25,164 bases of DNA from a virus, in the IMG/VR virus record IMGVR_UViG_3300044972_000098, positions 1 to 25,164 of that record, one strand, 5' to 3'. Numbering within the stretch: the stretch's first letter is position 1; each line of letters opens with the position of its first letter. The notes under the pieces are model-generated. The model was not told where the DNA came from, did not search any database, and saw only the letters and a list, made by a program, of their open reading frames with translations. Shown piece by piece: positions 1,277-21,599 of this stretch. Position numbers and translations under genes: made by a program.

Positions 1277-3346
1277 TTGGCCCGCATGACCAAAGACCAG
1301 CGGCTTGCAAACGTCCATGCGGAAGCATTGGCCGAGTTTGACAATATCCAAGGCGTGATGCGCGATGAGCGGTTGCAGTGCCTAGAGGATCGCCGCTTCT
1401 ACTCAATCGCTGGCGCGCAGTGGGAGGGCAACCTCTATGAGCAATATCTGAACAAGCCCAAATTTGAGGTGAACAAGGTCCACCTGGCCGTGATGCGGAT
1501 CATCAACGAATACCGCAACAACCGCATCACGGTGGACTTCGTCAGCAAGGACGGCACAGCGGACGACAAGCTGGCCGATGTTTGCGATGGGCTGTTCCGG
1601 GCCGACGAGCAGGACAGCGGATCAAACGAGGCATATGACAACGCATTTGAGGAAGCTGTCGGTGGCGGCTTCGGTGCGTTCCGCCTGCGGTCTGTCTATG
1701 AGGACGAATACGACGAAGAGAACGAAAAGCAGCGCATTCGCATCGAGCCGATCTATGATGCCGACACGACGGTGTTCTTTGATCTGGACGCCAAGCGCCA
1801 AGACAAGGCCGACGCGCGCCTGTGCTATGTGCTGGCCGCAATGACCCGTGACGCATACCGGGCCGCATGGGATGACGACCCGACCACCTGGCCGAAGGGC
1901 ATCGAGCAGTGTGCCTTTGATTGGGCCACGCCTGATGTCGTTTATGTGGCCGAGGTCTACCGCGTTGAAGAGGCTTCAGAAACCATCCGCATCTTCCAGA
2001 CCATCGACGGGCAGGAGGAGAAGTATTTCGAAAAGGACTTCGAGGACGACGAAGATCTGGAGATGATGCTGGAGGCTGTCGGCACCAAAGAGGTCCGTCA
2101 GCGCCGCGTCAAGCGCCGCAAGGTGCGCAAGTACATCATGAGCGGCGGCAGGGTACTGGAAGACAGCGGATACATCGCTGGCGACCAGATCCCGATTGTT
2201 CCGGTCTATGGCAAACGCTGGTTCGTTGACAACATCGAGCGGTGCATGGGCCACGTCCGTCTGGCCAAGGATGCGCAGCGGCTGAAGAACATGCAGCTTT
2301 CGAAGCTGGGCGAAATCAGCGCGCTTTCGACTGTTGAGAAACCCATCTTTACGCCTGAGCAAGTTGCCGGTCACGAAATGATGTGGTCCGAGGATAACCT
2401 CAGAAACTATCCCTACCTGCTGCTGAACACCGTGACCGATGCCAACGGCGGCGAGGTTCTGTCTGGCCCAGTCGGCTACACCAAGCCGCCGCAGATCCCG
2501 CCTGCATTGGCTGGGCTGTTGCAGATCACCGAGCAGGACATGAGCGACCTGCTGGGCAAGCCCGACGCTGCCGATGAGGTGGTTGCCAACGTCAGCGGCA
2601 AGGCGGTTGAACTGGTCCAGCAGCGCCTCGACATGCAGACATTCATCTACATGTCGAATATGTCCAAGGCGATCAAGCGCGGCGGCGAAATCTGGCTTTC
2701 GATGGCGCGTGACATTCTTGTGGAGCCTGGCCGCAAGATGAAGGCTGTCGGCGCCGGTGGTGAGTTGTCCAGCATTGAAATGGGCAAGCCGATCCTGAAC
2801 GTCGAGACCGGCGAAGTGGAATATGAGAACGATCTGAGCAACGCCAAGTTTGACGTGGCTGTTGATGTTGGCCCTGCATCGGCAAGCAAGCGCAGTGCCA
2901 CCGTCCGCGCGCTGTTGGGCATGATCCAGCTTTCGCCTGATCCAGAAACGCAGCAAGTGCTGACCTCGATGGCCATGATGAACATGGATGGCGAGGGCAT
3001 CGGCGAGGTGCGCGGCTATTTCCGCAACAAGCTGATCAAGATGGGCGTCATTCAGCCGACCGAGCAAGAGGGCGAAAAGCTTCTGGCAGAAATGCAGGCC
3101 GCGCAGCAGCCAGACCCGCAGGCGCAATATCTGCAAGCTGCCGCTATGGAAGCGCAGGCGAAGGCAGGCCAAGCGCAAGCCAACACAGAATACACCTTGG
3201 CGCGTGCGGAAGAGACCCGCGCCAAGACCGTGGAGGTGCTTGCTGGCATCCAGCAAAAAGAACGCACCAACGTAGTGGAAACAGCGAAGGCTCTGCAAGA
3301 GACCGTCGCCACCGGAATGCGGCAACCGCCCAGCCGCACAATGTAA
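1277..3346 (+). CDS. P22-like portal protein
   Basis: Forms the dodecameric ring at one head vertex, the docking site for terminase and channel for DNA. Length (689 residues from TTG) is close to P22 gp1 (725), and its place between terL and scaffold is diagnostic. The core carries many charged residues and segments such as RIINEYRNNRITVDFV and PIVPVYGKRW that are typical of P22-type portals. The last 80 or so residues are Gln/Ala/Glu-rich helix, matching the C-terminal barrel region of this family. The TTG at 1277 has an AAAGG ribosome site 8 bases upstream; the in-frame ATG at 1286 would leave a spacing of about 17, so TTG is preferred. Transcribed from the promoter at 1216-1244 and/or by read-through from terL. 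Confidence 0.93.
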   Translation: MARMTKDQRLANVHAEALAEFDNIQGVMRDERLQCLEDRRFYSIAGAQWEGNLYEQYLNKPKFEVNKVHLAVMRIINEYRNNRITVDFVSKDGTADDKLADVCDGLFRADEQDSGSNEAYDNAFEEAVGGGFGAFRLRSVYEDEYDEENEKQRIRIEPIYDADTTVFFDLDAKRQDKADARLCYVLAAMTRDAYRAAWDDDPTTWPKGIEQCAFDWATPDVVYVAEVYRVEEASETIRIFQTIDGQEEKYFEKDFEDDEDLEMMLEAVGTKEVRQRRVKRRKVRKYIMSGGRVLEDSGYIAGDQIPIVPVYGKRWFVDNIERCMGHVRLAKDAQRLKNMQLSKLGEISALSTVEKPIFTPEQVAGHEMMWSEDNLRNYPYLLLNTVTDANGGEVLSGPVGYTKPPQIPPALAGLLQITEQDMSDLLGKPDAADEVVANVSGKAVELVQQRLDMQTFIYMSNMSKAIKRGGEIWLSMARDILVEPGRKMKAVGAGGELSSIEMGKPILNVETGEVEYENDLSNAKFDVAVDVGPASASKRSATVRALLGMIQLSPDPETQQVLTSMAMMNMDGEGIGEVRGYFRNKLIKMGVIQPTEQEGEKLLAEMQAAQQPDPQAQYLQAAAMEAQAKAGQAQANTEYTLARAEETRAKTVEVLAGIQQKERTNVVETAKALQETVATGMRQPPSRTM

Positions 3347-3371
3347 TGGGTGAGAAAATCGCGAGGATCGC

Positions 3372-4214
3372 ATGACTGAATTGGCAGAACAGATCGAAGA
3401 TGACTTTGAAGATGAGGCTGAAGAAATCAATGCCGACATGGCCGAGATGGCTGACGGCAATGATGACGAAGCCGAAGAAGTTGTAATTTCGATTAACGGG
3501 GAAGCGCCAGCCCCGGAGGAAGATGAGGAAGCCCGCGCCCCTGATTGGGTCCGGGATCTTCGCAAGAACTATCGTGAGGAGAAACGTCGATCCAAGGAAT
3601 TGGAGCAGCGGCTCGCACAAGTCGAACAGCGGAACACCCAAGCGGTCGCGCCACTTGGGCAAAAGCCAACGCTTGAAAAGGCCGACTACGACACCGACCG
3701 ATATGAGAAGGATCTTACTGCATGGTATGAGAAGAAGCGCCAGCATGACGAGCGTGAGGCTACCGTAAAGTCTGAACACCAAGCCGTTCAGAAAGAGTGG
3801 GAGCGCAAGCTGGAAAGCTATCAGGGGGCGAAGGCTGGCCTGAAGGTGCGTGACTTCGAGTTTGCCGAGGATGTCGTCCAAGACAATCTCAGCGTCATGC
3901 AGCAGGGCATGATTGTGCAAGGTGCCGACAACCCGGCCCTTGTCGTTTATGCTTTGGGCAAGAACCCGAAAAAGGCGAAGGAAATCGCTTCCATTACAGA
4001 TCCCGTGAAGTTCGCCTTTGCGGTTGCGAAATTGGAGACGCAGTTGAAGGTATCTAACCGCAAGGCTCAATCGTCACCCGAGCGCAAGATCAGCGGCACC
4101 GCCCGCCCATCTGGCGCGGTTGACAGCACCCTAGACCGCCTGCGGTCTGAAGCAGAAAAGACTGGCGACTATTCCAAAGTTTTCCAGTATAAGAAGCAGA
4201 AGGCCAAGGGCTAA
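3372..4214 (+). CDS. Scaffolding protein
   Basis: Assembly chaperone that directs coat protein into a prohead and then leaves. The protein has 280 residues (P22 gp8 has 303). The first 55 residues are extremely acidic (runs of D and E). A charged heptad-like helical region (about 60-140) follows, and the end is strongly basic (YKKQKAKG). Acidic N terminus, long helices and basic C terminus is the usual scaffold layout; in P22 the basic C-terminal helix-loop-helix binds coat. Position between portal and coat supports the call. Sequence-level similarity to gp8 is weak, so the assignment rests on composition and synteny. A GAGGA ribosome site is 5 bases upstream of the ATG. Confidence 0.82.
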   Translation: MTELAEQIEDDFEDEAEEINADMAEMADGNDDEAEEVVISINGEAPAPEEDEEARAPDWVRDLRKNYREEKRRSKELEQRLAQVEQRNTQAVAPLGQKPTLEKADYDTDRYEKDLTAWYEKKRQHDEREATVKSEHQAVQKEWERKLESYQGAKAGLKVRDFEFAEDVVQDNLSVMQQGMIVQGADNPALVVYALGKNPKKAKEIASITDPVKFAFAVAKLETQLKVSNRKAQSSPERKISGTARPSGAVDSTLDRLRSEAEKTGDYSKVFQYKKQKAKG

Positions 4215-11749: not shown

Positions 11750-13305
11750 TGGAACCGATCAACTACATGCTCGACGTGAAAAGCCCCATCGAGCAGGCGC
11801 TGATGGGCTACGGCTTGGGCCGCCAAGACATTGAGCAAACCCAAATCATGCAAGAACGGTCGCAGGCGATGGATCTGCGTGCGGCACAGGAATCCCGTGC
11901 GGCGGCGGCGGCTGAGGAGCAACGCGCGGCGGCTGCCAAGGAGCGCGCCAAGGCTGATGCCATGCAGGCGCAGTTGATGCAGCTTCGCCAAAGCGCGATT
12001 GATGGCAAGTTGACCGTTGATGCGTTGAACCAATATGCGCTTGGCAATGCTGATACCTTTGCCGAATTTGCAACAGCATTCAGTGCAATTGAAACTGCAA
12101 AGCGGCAGCCTCAAGTTCAGTTCAACATTGAAACAACTATTCCTGCGCTGACAGGAAACCCCGCCGCTGCACTGGCATTGTTTGATGAGCGCATTGCGGC
12201 TGCGGAGAATACGGGCACGCCAGAGGCGATGGCCGAGGCGCAAGCATTGCGGGCGAACCGTGCCATTCTTGAGGCAGATCCCCGCGCATACGGGGTTTCG
12301 ATGCTTGGCACATTGGTGGCAACCCGAGCGATTGACGACAAGCAGGCCGACACGATCCTGAAACTGGCTGGGCAGGATCAGGCAGCGCCAGAAGGTGCGT
12401 CGCCTCTGGGCAAGATGGCGCAAGACGTGGCAAACGGTCTAATCCCGCAATCTGTTTTGGATGCGGCTATCAAACTGGAACAGAGGGCAGGTCAAGAAGG
12501 TTTGACGCTGCAGCAGAAGATTGCAGAGGAAGCCCGCCTGCGCGGTGAATATGCGAAGCGCACGGAGGATCTGGGGGCGGCTGAACGCAACTTCTCGATC
12601 ATTGAAACGTCGTCAATGGATCAGAGTGGAGCAGGCGACATTGCGCTCGTTACGTCGTTCATGAAGATGCTGGACCCAGGATCAGTTGTTCGCGAAACTG
12701 AATTTGCGACTGCTGCCAACGCGGGCGGTCTACTGGCGCGCTTGACTGGCATTGCGGCAAAGGTCGAGGATGGGCAGTTCCTAAGCGAACGGCAGCGCGC
12801 TGACTTTACTCGTCTTGCTGGGGAATATCTTGAAGCCGCTAAAGCGCAGGAGCAGGGCGTTCAGCAAAGCTATCAACTGATTGTTGATAACTATGGGCTT
12901 GACCCGATCAACGTGTTCGGTGCGCGTGCTGCGACTGCCCCTGCCCCTGCCCCTGCTCCGGCCCCTGCTCCGGCGCCAGCCCCTGCTCCGGCCCCTGCTC
13001 CGGCGCCAGCGCCTGCTCCGGCCCCTGCTCCGGCCCCTGCTCCGGCGCCAGCGCCTGCTCCGGCCCCTGCTCCGGCGCCAGCGCCTGCTCCGGCCCCTGC
13101 TCCGGCCCCTGCTCCGGCGCCAGCGCCTGCTCCGGCCCCTGCTCCGGCCCCTGCTCCGGCGCCAGCGCCTGCTACAATTCCACAAGGATTCATCAACAAC
13201 ACATTCATACAGCAAGCCGTAAAAAACAACGCAAGCCGTGGCGTGACGGTCGAATCCCTTTGGAACGCCATGACGCCAGAGGAGCGCGCAGCATATGGCA
13301 AATGA
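11749..13305 (+). CDS. P22 gp20-like DNA ejection protein with Ala-Pro tract
   Basis: Second ejection protein; 518 residues (P22 gp20 has 471). The start at 11749 overlaps the gp7-like stop (TGATG); the frame extends 44 codons further upstream, but that stretch reads as noise over the gp7-like gene. Residues 1-70 are helical and Gln/Ala/Arg-rich. The middle (about 100-390) is mainly alpha-helical. Residues 397-474 are 39 consecutive Ala-Pro dipeptides. A 44-residue C-terminal tail, FINNTFIQQAVKNN through ESLWNAMTPEERAAYGK, follows the linker and may be a separate docking module. It overlaps the gp16-like gene by 11 bases. Confidence 0.75.
   Translation: MEPINYMLDVKSPIEQALMGYGLGRQDIEQTQIMQERSQAMDLRAAQESRAAAAAEEQRAAAAKERAKADAMQAQLMQLRQSAIDGKLTVDALNQYALGNADTFAEFATAFSAIETAKRQPQVQFNIETTIPALTGNPAAALALFDERIAAAENTGTPEAMAEAQALRANRAILEADPRAYGVSMLGTLVATRAIDDKQADTILKLAGQDQAAPEGASPLGKMAQDVANGLIPQSVLDAAIKLEQRAGQEGLTLQQKIAEEARLRGEYAKRTEDLGAAERNFSIIETSSMDQSGAGDIALVTSFMKMLDPGSVVRETEFATAANAGGLLARLTGIAAKVEDGQFLSERQRADFTRLAGEYLEAAKAQEQGVQQSYQLIVDNYGLDPINVFGARAATAPAPAPAPAPAPAPAPAPAPAPAPAPAPAPAPAPAPAPAPAPAPAPAPAPAPAPAPAPAPAPAPAPAPAPAPAPAPAPATIPQGFINNTFIQQAVKNNASRGVTVESLWNAMTPEERAAYGK
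12937..13170 (+). repeat. Ala-Pro minisatellite inside the gp20-like gene
   Basis: A run of 39 hexamers, each encoding Ala-Pro. Only four spellings occur: GCCCCT, GCTCCG, GCGCCA and GCGCCT. Calling these a, b, c, d, the order is aaab, abc, ababcdb, ababcdb, abcdb, ababcdb, ababcd. The 42-base ababcdb and 30-base abcdb blocks are repeated exactly, so the tract grew by duplication of blocks larger than one codon pair. All unit lengths are multiples of six and keep the frame. Antisense and alternative-frame open frames over it are by-products. Confidence 0.95.
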
Positions 13306-19320: not shown

Positions 19321-19616
19321 TGGCCAAGACACCGGCGTGGATGCGCAAAGAAGGCAAAAGCCCCAGCGGCGGCTTGAACGCCAAGGGGCGCGCATCTGCG
19401 AAGGCTGAAGGCATGAACCTGAAAGCCCCGGTGAAGTCTGGCGACAACCCGCGCAGGGCTTCGTTCCTGGCACGCATGGGCAACATGCCGGGGCCTGAAC
19501 GCAAGGATGGCGAACCAACGCGCCTGCTGCTGTCTCTGAAGGCGTGGGGCGCATCCAGCAAGGCTGACGCGCGCAGGAAAGCCAAGGCAATCTCCGCACG
19601 CAATAAGGGGAAGTGA
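19320..19616 (+). CDS. Small basic phage protein (DUF6321-like)
   Basis: A 98-residue basic protein. The N-terminal TPAWMRKEGKSPSGGLNAKG and the RASFLARMGNMPG segment match a conserved phage family (DUF6321 as I recall it), found as partner of the preceding short basic protein. The ATG at 19320 overlaps the previous stop; the GTG at 19317 is an unlikely alternative. The C terminus LKAWGASSKADARRKAKAI is helical and basic. Function unknown. The pair is usually found near the end of structural modules. Confidence 0.75.
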   Translation: MAKTPAWMRKEGKSPSGGLNAKGRASAKAEGMNLKAPVKSGDNPRRASFLARMGNMPGPERKDGEPTRLLLSLKAWGASSKADARRKAKAISARNKGK

Positions 19617-19618
19617 CA

Positions 19619-20173
19619 ATGGACTATCGAGAACTGGCAAAACAGATAGCCATTGAGGAGGGCATTGATCCCGACGTGTTTGTGCGTCTGGTTGAAGCCG
19701 AAAGCAGTTTCAACGCTGATGCAGTATCATCGGCGGGCGCGTTGGGTCTGGCTCAACTAATGCCTGGCACTGCTGCTGACCTCGGTGTTGACCCGATGGA
19801 CCCTGAACAAAACCTGCGCGGCGGTGCAAGATATCTCAGGATGATGCAGGACGAGTTCGGTGACATGCCCACGGCTCTGGCCGCCTATAACGCTGGGCCA
19901 GGCAATGTTCGGGCATATGGTGGCATGCCTCCGTTCAAGGAGACGCAGAACTACGTTGCGAAGATCCTCGGCACGGGCGTGGCTGATACTGCCTTCAATG
20001 GCCGGTCGGCGAACCTTCCGTTGACGATGGGGCAGCCTGCTGGGAATGACTACGGCATTGCCTCCACGGCTCGGATGCCGCCGTTCACAATCCCACAATT
20101 GCGCAGCACGCAGTCAGATGCACTGGCAGCATACGATCCTTATGCTATCCTGCAGCAGTTCAATTTGAAGTAA
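19619..20173 (+). CDS. SLT-domain lytic transglycosylase
   Basis: Peptidoglycan hydrolase cleaving the MurNAc-GlcNAc bond. Of 184 residues, the first 120 or so form a goose-lysozyme/SLT fold: catalytic Glu28 in VEAESSFN, GALGLAQLMPGTA (40-52), LAAYNAGPGNV (about 88-97) and ETQNYVAKI (108-116). The C-terminal 65 residues are low-complexity and Pro/Ala-rich, without a recognised domain. The ATG at 19619 follows an AAGGGG site 8 bases upstream; the GTG at 19613 is an alternative. No signal peptide, so it needs a holin for export or acts from the virion during DNA entry. It lies at the boundary of structural and lysis genes, so either role fits. Confidence 0.88.
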   Translation: MDYRELAKQIAIEEGIDPDVFVRLVEAESSFNADAVSSAGALGLAQLMPGTAADLGVDPMDPEQNLRGGARYLRMMQDEFGDMPTALAAYNAGPGNVRAYGGMPPFKETQNYVAKILGTGVADTAFNGRSANLPLTMGQPAGNDYGIASTARMPPFTIPQLRSTQSDALAAYDPYAILQQFNLK

Positions 20174-20188
20174 CGGTTGGAGACTAAG

Positions 20189-20422
20189 ATGGAACTAATC
20201 CGCACCTTTTGGCCGCTTGCCGTTGCTTTCGTGGCGACCATCGTCTGGCTGATCCGCCTGGAAGCGCGCAGCGTTGAGAACAGCAAGGAGATCAAGCGGC
20301 TGTGGTATCAGCGCAAGGAGGACTTGGAGACGTCCAAGCAGGCGCGCGAGGAAACCAACAAGATGCTGTCCGAGATCCGCGATGATATAAAGTCACTGAT
20401 ATCTCGAGTTGGCAGCAAATGA
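20189..20422 (+). CDS. Small membrane protein with coiled coil
   Basis: A 77-residue protein with one membrane segment at residues about 4-22 (IRTFWPLAVAFVATIVWLI), then a strongly charged helix (LEARSVENSKEIKRL ... DDIKSLISRV) predicted as coiled coil. This layout resembles inner-membrane spanins (Rz) or accessory holin-like proteins of lysis cassettes. The ATG at 20189 has a GGAG site six bases upstream; a TTG at 20177 is less likely. Coupled to the endolysin by ATGA overlap. Which lysis role it plays cannot be decided from sequence. Confidence 0.7.
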   Translation: MELIRTFWPLAVAFVATIVWLIRLEARSVENSKEIKRLWYQRKEDLETSKQAREETNKMLSEIRDDIKSLISRVGSK

Positions 20423-20826
20423 GACATTGGGACGCGCGCAGCCTTCGAAACCTGACGGGTATTCACCCAGATCTGCGCCGTGTCATGGACCGGGCATTGC
20501 AGGAGGCGCCGTTTGCTTTTGTCGTGACTGAGGGGCTGCGAACAATTGAACGCCAGCGTGAACTCGTGCGCGTCGGTGCGTCCAACATCCTCAACAGCCG
20601 CCACCTGACCGGCCATGCCGTCGATCTGGTCCCATATGTGGACATTGACAAGGATGGCAGGGTCGAGGTCGAGGAGATGTACGCGTGGCCGCTCTACTAC
20701 AAGCTGGCGCCTGTCATTAAGGCCGCTGCGGACAAGGAGGATGTGGCCATTGTCTGGGGCGGTTCGTGGCGAAGCTTCAAAGATGGGCCTCACTGGGAAT
20801 TAGACCGGAAAGTCTATCCCGCATGA
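20419..20826 (+). CDS. M15 endolysin (L-Ala-D-Glu peptidase type)
   Basis: A 135-residue peptidoglycan peptidase. The zinc site is seen as SRHLTGHAVDL (His62-x6-Asp69) and KDGPHWEL (Asp122, His125), the same arrangement as the phage T5 endolysin, an L-alanoyl-D-glutamate endopeptidase. Between them, residues 75-86 (DIDKDGRVEVEE) fit a 12-residue EF-hand calcium loop, with Asp at 1, 3, 5, Gly at 6 and Glu at 12. No signal peptide, so release depends on the holin. The last 50 bases overlap an HNH gene on the opposite strand, and a second diverged copy of the final 14 codons lies at 21376-21420. The gene itself is intact and of normal length. Confidence 0.9.
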   Translation: MRHWDARSLRNLTGIHPDLRRVMDRALQEAPFAFVVTEGLRTIERQRELVRVGASNILNSRHLTGHAVDLVPYVDIDKDGRVEVEEMYAWPLYYKLAPVIKAAADKEDVAIVWGGSWRSFKDGPHWELDRKVYPA

Positions 20827-21331
20827 TCTGGCGTATTACTGCGCCAATCTTTTGCATTTCTTCAAACGAAAAGCGGTCCCCGCGGGCGAAGTTGCAGGGG
20901 GCACATGCCGGAGCGACATTCCCCTTAATGTGAGGCAGCTTGTTGTCTATGCGGTCAAGGCCTCTTGGATTGTCCTTTGTCCCACAGTGGACGCATGGCT
21001 GTATTATAAACTCCAAGACCTCGTTCGTTGTAAGGTCACAATGGTCAATTCTTTGATAGGCCTTGCGCAGGAATATGGCGCGGCCCTTGTCAGTTTTGTT
21101 GTAACGCTGCTGGCGCTTTTTGGCCAAGCTCTTTTGTTCGTCGGAAAGACTGCCCCACCGCTCGGTGCGCCTATCTCTGCCCATTTTCCTCGCAGACAGG
21201 CATTCTTTGCACTCGTATGAGACCCCTAGCGGGCGTGGCGCATCCTTATAGAAGAAGTCAAGCGTAGCTGGCTTCTCAGCCTTACACCTAAAACAGGTGC
21301 GCGTAGGGATGGAGTTTTGTGAGTTTTCCAT
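20777..21331 (-). CDS. HNH homing-type endonuclease, antisense within the lysis cassette
   Basis: A 184-residue nuclease (start ATG at 21331; further in-frame ATGs at 21346 and 21457 are less likely because they read through the neighbouring gene remnants). Residues 13-44 have CX2C...CX2C (CFRC, CKEC), a zinc-ribbon often found at the N terminus of phage HNH proteins. Residues 113-150 hold the nuclease: CVHC, GLDRIDN, GNVAPACAPCN. The last 15 or so residues and stop are encoded opposite the endolysin 3' end. Transcribed against the lysis genes, it needs its own promoter; only a poor candidate (TTGCGG-17-TACAAA) lies upstream. No room remains for a group I intron core, so it is free-standing. 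Likely a mobile gene that cuts phages lacking it. Confidence 0.88.
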   Translation of the reverse strand: MENSQNSIPTRTCFRCKAEKPATLDFFYKDAPRPLGVSYECKECLSARKMGRDRRTERWGSLSDEQKSLAKKRQQRYNKTDKGRAIFLRKAYQRIDHCDLTTNEVLEFIIQPCVHCGTKDNPRGLDRIDNKLPHIKGNVAPACAPCNFARGDRFSFEEMQKIGAVIRQIMRDRLSGLIPSEAHL

Positions 21332-21375
21332 GTAATCTTTGTACATGAGTGTGGCTGCTGCCGCAAGTGGAATAC

Positions 21376-21420
21376 GGCCCGCATTGGGAACTGGACCGCC
21401 GGGTCTATCCGGCAAAATGA
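21376..21420 (+). pseudogene. Detached second copy of the endolysin 3' end
   Basis: Bases 21376-21420 read GPHWELDRRVYPAK then stop, against GPHWELDRKVYPA then stop at 20785-20826. The two copies differ at many synonymous positions (for example CTG against TTA for Leu, CAT against CAC for His), so it is not a fresh duplication. The reading frame upstream of 21376 does not match the endolysin, and an in-frame TGA lies at about 21345. This appears to be the original gene end, cut off when the HNH cassette entered. The holin ribosome site follows directly. Confidence 0.85.
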
Positions 21421-21431
21421 GGAGATTTGAC

Positions 21432-21599
21432 ATGGATTCGGCACAAATCGGCGGCATCGTCCGCGCATTGGCGGCGGCAATCGGCGGCTACTTTGTCGGG
21501 CAGGGCTTGGTGGACGCGGAAACCGTCACAACCATCGGCGGTGCTGCTGCCACGCTGGCTGTCGCTGCCTGGTCGATCTACTCAAAGCGCAAGGCGTGA
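21432..21599 (+). CDS. Holin-like small membrane protein
   Basis: A 55-residue protein with two hydrophobic segments, about residues 8-25 (IVRALAAAIGGYFVGQGL) and 31-49 (TTIGGAAATLAVAAWSIY), separated by the turn VDAE and ended by basic SKRKA. This matches small holins of the Pam3_gp28 type known in phages and prophages of alphaproteobacteria (recalled, not searched). It would open the inner membrane to release the endolysin. GAGGAG ribosome site 7-12 bases upstream. The stop overlaps the next GTG (GTGA). Confidence 0.8.
   Translation: MDSAQIGGIVRALAAAIGGYFVGQGLVDAETVTTIGGAAATLAVAAWSIYSKRKA

Follow-up and report, generated by a model that had tools for sequence, protein, structure and literature searches.

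A nuclease gene and a recoded gene end inserted at the zinc-ligand codons of phage M15 lysins

How does a phage lysin gene remain complete when its final codons recur on the far side of a nuclease gene? The question is raised by a 25,164-nucleotide (nt) stretch of viral DNA, IMG/VR record IMGVR_UViG_3300044972_000098 (the whole stretch is termed the window; the phages that carry the arrangement described below are uncultivated). There, an M15-family endolysin (lysin) gene overlaps an HNH nuclease gene on the opposite strand, and a second copy of the lysin end lies beyond the nuclease gene. According to an original prediction, a mobile gene had inserted into the lysin close to the zinc motif, bringing a replacement 3′ end with it. 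We established that the nuclease gene lies at the conserved D-G-P-H (zinc ligand) codons, that the lysin frame enters a tail borne by the insert, and that the native tail is displaced.

Two lysin ends around an antisense HNH gene

The features of the window locus are:
20419 to 20826, plus strand: M15-family endolysin, L-Ala-D-Glu peptidase type (Pfam Peptidase_M15_4, 5.7e-10; phrog_465 endolysin, 1.5e-49).
20781 to 20826, plus strand: recoded, element-borne lysin tail, from codon K121 (against the empty site of the relative L003: 10 synonymous codons, one K/R change and an earlier stop).
20777 to 21331, minus strand: HNH nuclease gene, PacI-like nuclease domain after an N-terminal zinc ribbon (phrog_1035, 5e-21; PacI 3ldy by profile and fold; AlphaFold2).
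20777 to 20826, both strands: 50-bp antisense overlap of the lysin tail with the HNH C-terminus and stop (open reading frame (ORF) coordinates).
21332 to 21373, no strand: HNH upstream leader, the right end of the inserted element (unmatched in the empty sites L002, L003 and L005).
21374 to 21420, plus strand: displaced native lysin 3′ end, GPHWELDRRVYPAK and stop (45 of 47 nt as in the intact L005 lysin end).
21374 to 21384, plus strand: RYGKNCCNCAY, a conserved core at the distal junction that corresponds to the lysin D-G-P-H codons (20 of 22 loci).
21432 to 21599, plus strand: holin, Phage_holin_10, Pam3 gp28 family (Pfam, 1.3e-14).

The lysin has a full reading frame with a hybrid 3′ end, terminating in KDGPHWELDRKVYPA and a stop codon. 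The HNH ORF, with a best start at ATG 21331 (an alternative in-frame ATG is at 21346), ends within the lysin at 20777-20779, where its stop lies opposite the lysin F-K codons (TTCAA); its final ∼15 codons and stop are antisense to the lysin tail, as had been predicted. The distal copy (21376-21420) is in frame up to its own stop, and a ribosome-binding-like site and then the holin gene follow it. Having no obvious start signal, this copy is probably not translated. Over 13 codons the proximal and distal copies share 29 of 39 nt, with a single amino-acid change (K/R), which bears out the claim of a complete lysin whose last codons recur in another spelling of nearly the same peptide. The duplication stood, with a small correction to its proposed boundaries: recoding starts two codons earlier, at K121 (first changed base, 20781), and the match to the empty site begins at 21374. 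A repeat finder run over the window with the settings used did not call the two ends as a repeat, because the copies are too diverged.

A scan of viral contigs with the window lysin yielded ∼20 close relatives (76-97% identical) and 59 distant ones. All close relatives except L004, L010, L011 and L019 have one lysin end and then the next gene, without a nuclease gene. Most of these nuclease-free loci (L002, L003, L005 and others) have the distal-type tail, and the holin is next except in L006 and L012. When the window was aligned with L003, identity was 95.8% across the 2361 nt that lead to the junction and, on its far side, 91%, with 596 nt in place of 5 nt. The shift to synonymous change at the tail is abrupt: the first 360 nt of the lysin have 18 differences (342/360 identical) and the last 48 nt have 16 (Fisher p = 4e-8, a test that takes sites as independent), corresponding to 10 synonymous codons, one K/R change and a stop one codon earlier. 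In the distal 47 nt, two positions distinguish the window from L005 and four from L003. The window proximal spelling was present in none of the HNH-free close relatives, and every locus with both lysin ends in the scan of lysin relatives had a nuclease gene. The arrangement is not due to chance, because the distal 47 nt nearly equal the L005 end and the same architecture is present in independent contigs.

One such case is provided by L010 and L011, near-identical genomes counted as one event. Their HNH protein is 75% identical to that of the window and its gene occupies the same antisense position, with another recoded tail (GPHWELSWKAYPA and stop) and the distal native tail kept. Their empty sister L007 has a 99% identical lysin and 95% identical downstream sequence, and the alignment gave the same insertion pattern as the window vs. 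L003, with flanks of 96% and 95%. A further case, L136, was recovered on two contigs and represents a separate M15 subfamily, with a lysin core 30% identical to that of the window. Both tails are retained, and their 18 codons specify identical amino acids with 13 differences, all synonymous. Its four empty relatives (L273-L276) end in QPPTKLA and stop, which is the distal form, not the proximal VPKMNA and stop. This is an independent repeat of the empty-allele test. Empty target sites thus exist in L002, L003, L005, L007 and L273-L276, and the predicted match of empty relatives to the distal copy was obtained both for the window (L002, L003 and L005) and for L136. Entry of a mobile gene near the zinc motif together with a replacement 3′ end is supported by empty alleles in two divergent lysin subfamilies.

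The nuclease, its junction and other nucleases at the same site

In the AlphaFold2 model of the 184-residue window HNH protein (pLDDT 89, pTM 0.61), a zinc ribbon at the N-terminus is followed by a helical middle part and, at the C-terminus, by the HNH domain. Its best solved relative is PacI (PDB 3ldy; profile, 6e-6; fold, 1.5e-4), and the zinc ligands and HNH residues are conserved across its family; the tail past the last helix is poorly conserved and of low confidence in the model. By sequence and model the protein has a site-specific nuclease fold, with predicted specificity. The likeness to PacI-like HNH enzymes, including those of lactococcal Skunavirus (PDB 3ldy; PMC12724721), lies in the nuclease domain, by profile and fold; a difference is that PacI serves as a restriction enzyme. 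Lysins, duplications and overlaps went unmentioned in the Skunavirus paper when its text was searched (PMC12724721). The phrog_1035 match gives the label endonuclease VII, which is a broad family name, and the same broad similarity extends to F-CphI, a free-standing homing endonuclease with the EndoVII motif (PMC6083498). The DHHRN motif comprises a central DHDH with an invariant first histidine and a downstream R and N (PMC6083498), whereas the window family has D-R-I-D at that place (L-D-R-I-D-N in full), the invariant histidine being replaced; membership of the DHHRN (F-CphI/EndoVII) family was rejected.

An HNH profile search recovered 30 contigs at 53-75% identity, 29 of them long enough to judge (redundant pairs included). 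In 29 of 29 loci the HNH gene is antisense to an M15 lysin and reaches with its C-terminal codons into the lysin end, which bears the motif PH[WFY][EQ], and the overlap spans 10-80 nt in the 20 relatives measured.

Between the HNH start and the holin, CCNCAY was present in 22 of 22 loci, and the longer RYGKNCCNCAY, which corresponds to D-(G/V)-P-H codons, in 20 (many of the 22 loci are related, and ∼eleven distinct lineages were counted). Shuffling predicts 0.09 occurrences of this core, and none was present in 21 control regions. Judged from the sequences, the core marks where the element ends on the right, at the lysin zinc-ligand codons, even where the remaining native tail is lost, and it is likely to be half of the nuclease target site. 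The core, upstream of the HNH start, might instead serve as an operator for autoregulation. However, the spacing between the core and the first HNH Cys codon varies from 33 to 86 nt, which fits a junction better. A palindrome-like GTGGGGAnnnTCCCCAC (or part of it), a possible operator, lies upstream of the HNH start and adjoins the junction core in L119 (∼2930-2960), L113 and L118.

Two other nuclease types were observed at the same lysin site:
L004, 5402 to 5917 (also in L019), plus strand: L004-type HNH reading frame.
L202, ∼2900 to 3450 (also in L216 and L220), antisense: NUMOD4-HNH_3 gene (classic homing type), accompanied by a lysin tail of its own, GPHFEIDPKKYPHK and stop.

In L004 and L019 the sense-strand HNH gene begins within the lysin stop (ATGA) and brings the lysin tail DWKAYP and stop. 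Its frame extends into the native lysin remnant HWELDRRVYPAK, now its own C-terminus, and the reading frame ends in FGKKEHWELDRRVYPAK and stop. Between the two loci the element differs at 1 of 493 nt (99.8% identical) and the lysin at 39 of 360 (89% identical), which points to recent horizontal movement. The L004-type and window HNH proteins both fall within the broad phrog_1035, and blastp similarity between them extends over just 29 residues (E = 0.001). At the same place, L202-L205 and L216 have the antisense NUMOD4-HNH_3 gene, with the lysin tail GPHFEIDPKKYPHK and stop or a close variant. Sufficient downstream sequence was available for 120 distinct lysin loci, of which 21 had a window-type HNH, three the NUMOD4 type and two the L004 type; the sample was partly fetched by HNH query, and these counts are not prevalence estimates. 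A single 69-kb contig (IMGVR_UViG_3300042314_000177) carries two lysin loci, L201 and L205, one with a window-type HNH and the other with the NUMOD4 type, and could represent two phages or a duplicated region.

These data established (i) specific insertion with exchange of the lysin tail for one carried by the insert; (ii) the existence of empty alleles; and (iii) horizontal movement for one of the three nuclease types.

Probable homing with a lysin repair patch and its rivals

The best explanation, which we hold to be probably correct, is a mobile nuclease element of the homing type that carries its own repair patch for the lysin. The nuclease would cut empty lysin alleles near GGNCCNCAY, and break repair by recombination would copy the recoded tail and the nuclease gene into the cut allele, anchored in the lysin body at the left and in the D-G-P-H core at the right. 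The recoded end would restore lysin function and, through its different DNA spelling, probably block self-cleavage; conservation of the tail protein with scrambled DNA is expected, because an unrecoded contiguous lysin would recreate the target. The antisense overlap would tie nuclease and lysin together, and the native tail would decay once insertion has occurred.

The other explanations differ in how much of the locus they account for. Illegitimate or modular recombination would have delivered a foreign lysin 3′ end with a neighbouring HNH gene and left the old end behind, the nuclease being passive and the recoding mere divergence. The HNH and lysin lineages are indeed co-inherited, the window tail ELDRKVYPA resembles those of other HNH-bearing lysins (e.g., ELNRKLYP in L114), as expected if it is foreign, and phage recombination boundaries are often marked by nuclease genes according to the passages available of one report (PMC10448857). 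This reading is nevertheless quite unlikely, given the use of the same few codons by three nuclease types (the window type and two others with at best distant similarity to it), an L004/L019 element almost identical in two lysin backgrounds, and junctions at the D-G-P-H core; the shared codons and the core junctions count for homing. We give still less credit to a scenario that the original prediction had also doubted, in which the lysin end was recently duplicated in tandem and the HNH gene was inserted between the copies later. It would suit two copies encoding nearly the same peptide, but empty relatives match the distal and not the proximal copy, nearly all free codon positions are changed in the proximal copy next to upstream sequence that is 95% identical, and no duplicated end without a nuclease gene was found among the lysin relatives. 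Equally hard to credit is a self-splicing intron or similar element, removed from the RNA so that the distal tail completes the lysin, although HNH genes often reside in group I introns and an exon-like lysin end stands on either side of the insert. The insert is filled by a nuclease gene on the opposite strand, and the proximal lysin already has a full in-frame tail and stop. A group I intron with an HNH gene was rejected, its catalytic RNA fold being unsupported: no Rfam match was obtained on either strand at E up to 1.

A partial rival concerns the recoding only, and ascribes the codon differences to the HNH C-terminus on the other strand rather than to evasion of cutting. Fifty nt are read on both strands, and the Pro codon is CCT in 14 of 24 HNH-bearing lysins vs. 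5 of 104 HNH-free ones, a choice that also sets an HNH residue. A poorly conserved, low-confidence HNH tail hardly demands a given spelling, however, and the tail is also replaced in the L004 type, which has no antisense coding there; we regard this rival as unlikely, but not negligible. Several observations weigh against homing with a repair patch itself. Recoding in the L004-type element starts downstream of the D-G-P-H-W codons. In most window-type relatives the native tail is reduced to a few nucleotides, and we infer the duplication there. Window-type HNH distances track lysin-core distances (Mantel r = 0.84), so this nuclease was mostly inherited with the lysin lineage and frequent jumping is unsupported for the window type. 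Part of the codon choice could also reflect the coding needs of the antisense HNH gene, or an older tail of foreign origin, instead of selection against recutting. A long and stable residence, to which the antisense overlap would contribute, interrupted now and then by homing into empty sister alleles, would fit both the co-inheritance and the insertion evidence.

A broader proposal, to which we assign an even chance, is that the M15 lysin ends of phages serve unrelated nucleases as a common docking site, and that the recoded tail carried by each nuclease is its antidote. This would amount to a natural home-and-rescue drive against an essential gene, mostly locked in place by antisense entanglement so that neither gene is lost alone. 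If so, phages would have evolved the logic of the engineered drives, attacking an essential gene while carrying a cut-proof piece of it. Cutting of the native vs. the recoded spelling by the HNH protein would be a simple readout for synonymous recoding as selected self-immunity.

Known systems and neighbouring observations

The closest precedent is the fungal mitochondrial mobile-ORF hybrids, known for Allomyces atp6 and for Glomus atp6, atp9, cox2 and nad3 (PMC3630166). There, an endonuclease gene lies in a coding sequence with an in-frame replacement C-terminal end, and the native end, left downstream, matches insert-free relatives while the new end differs mostly synonymously (PMC3630166). 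The phage locus shares the duplicated coding end around a nuclease gene, the synonymously diverged inserted copy and the native copy like that of relatives; it differs in having an antisense overlapping, PacI-like HNH gene instead of LAGLIDADG or GIY-YIG genes in host-gene direction, a phage lysin as host gene, and three nuclease types at one site. Literature searches, with most subscription journals outside their coverage, found no phage case of a duplicated gene end around a nuclease gene. The antisense phage lysin arrangement, which the original prediction had called unusual, is thus new as far as the literature found goes, but it is not unique, being recurrent, and its exon-replacing principle is already known in fungal mitochondria. 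It adds a bacterial-virus case to a phenomenon that we otherwise found described only there, and its signature, two synonymously diverged copies of a gene end on either side of a nuclease gene, can be searched for in other genes.

By analogy, the phage element resembles engineered "home-and-rescue" gene drives, of which it would be a natural counterpart. In the synthetic HomeR drive, the rescue copy is reportedly recoded. As described in the passages available, HomeR is alike in principle, setting a nuclease against an essential gene with an uncut version carried by the element, but it is an engineered CRISPR system in Drosophila, unrelated by descent (PMC7968924). The free-standing homing endonucleases of T4-like phages (Seg, Mob), in the parts of the source available, are likewise encoded by mobile genes next to or within an important gene, with empty-site relatives and flanking sequence replaced as in co-conversion (PMC2988022). 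Unlike the window element, they lie between genes or split a gene into two coding regions (Aeh1 nrdA, T4 gene 60), and the passages on them describe no replacement tail (PMC2988022).

In a bacterial genome collection, the lysin scan returned no relative and no prophage example, and the HNH profile gave distant matches only (25-57%), mostly to partial nuclease domains. The nearest HNH relatives in cultured phages are <60% identical, and the four window-type matches inspected (Ro1, Bas73, ESCO41 and SM_A8) are all at other genes. In Escherichia phage SM_A8 (L108, 2228-2938), the distant HNH relative overlaps the 3′ end of the DNA polymerase I gene by ∼40 nt in the sense direction; a duplicated polA tail was not found there by a 6-residue word search.

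Immediately upstream of the window lysin, an SLT transglycosylase gene (19613-20173) gives the phage a second peptidoglycan-degrading enzyme near the lysis module. Elsewhere in the window (∼12900-13200), a long Ala-Pro repeat (PAPAPA) lies within a predicted 562-amino-acid protein, with open frames on both strands.
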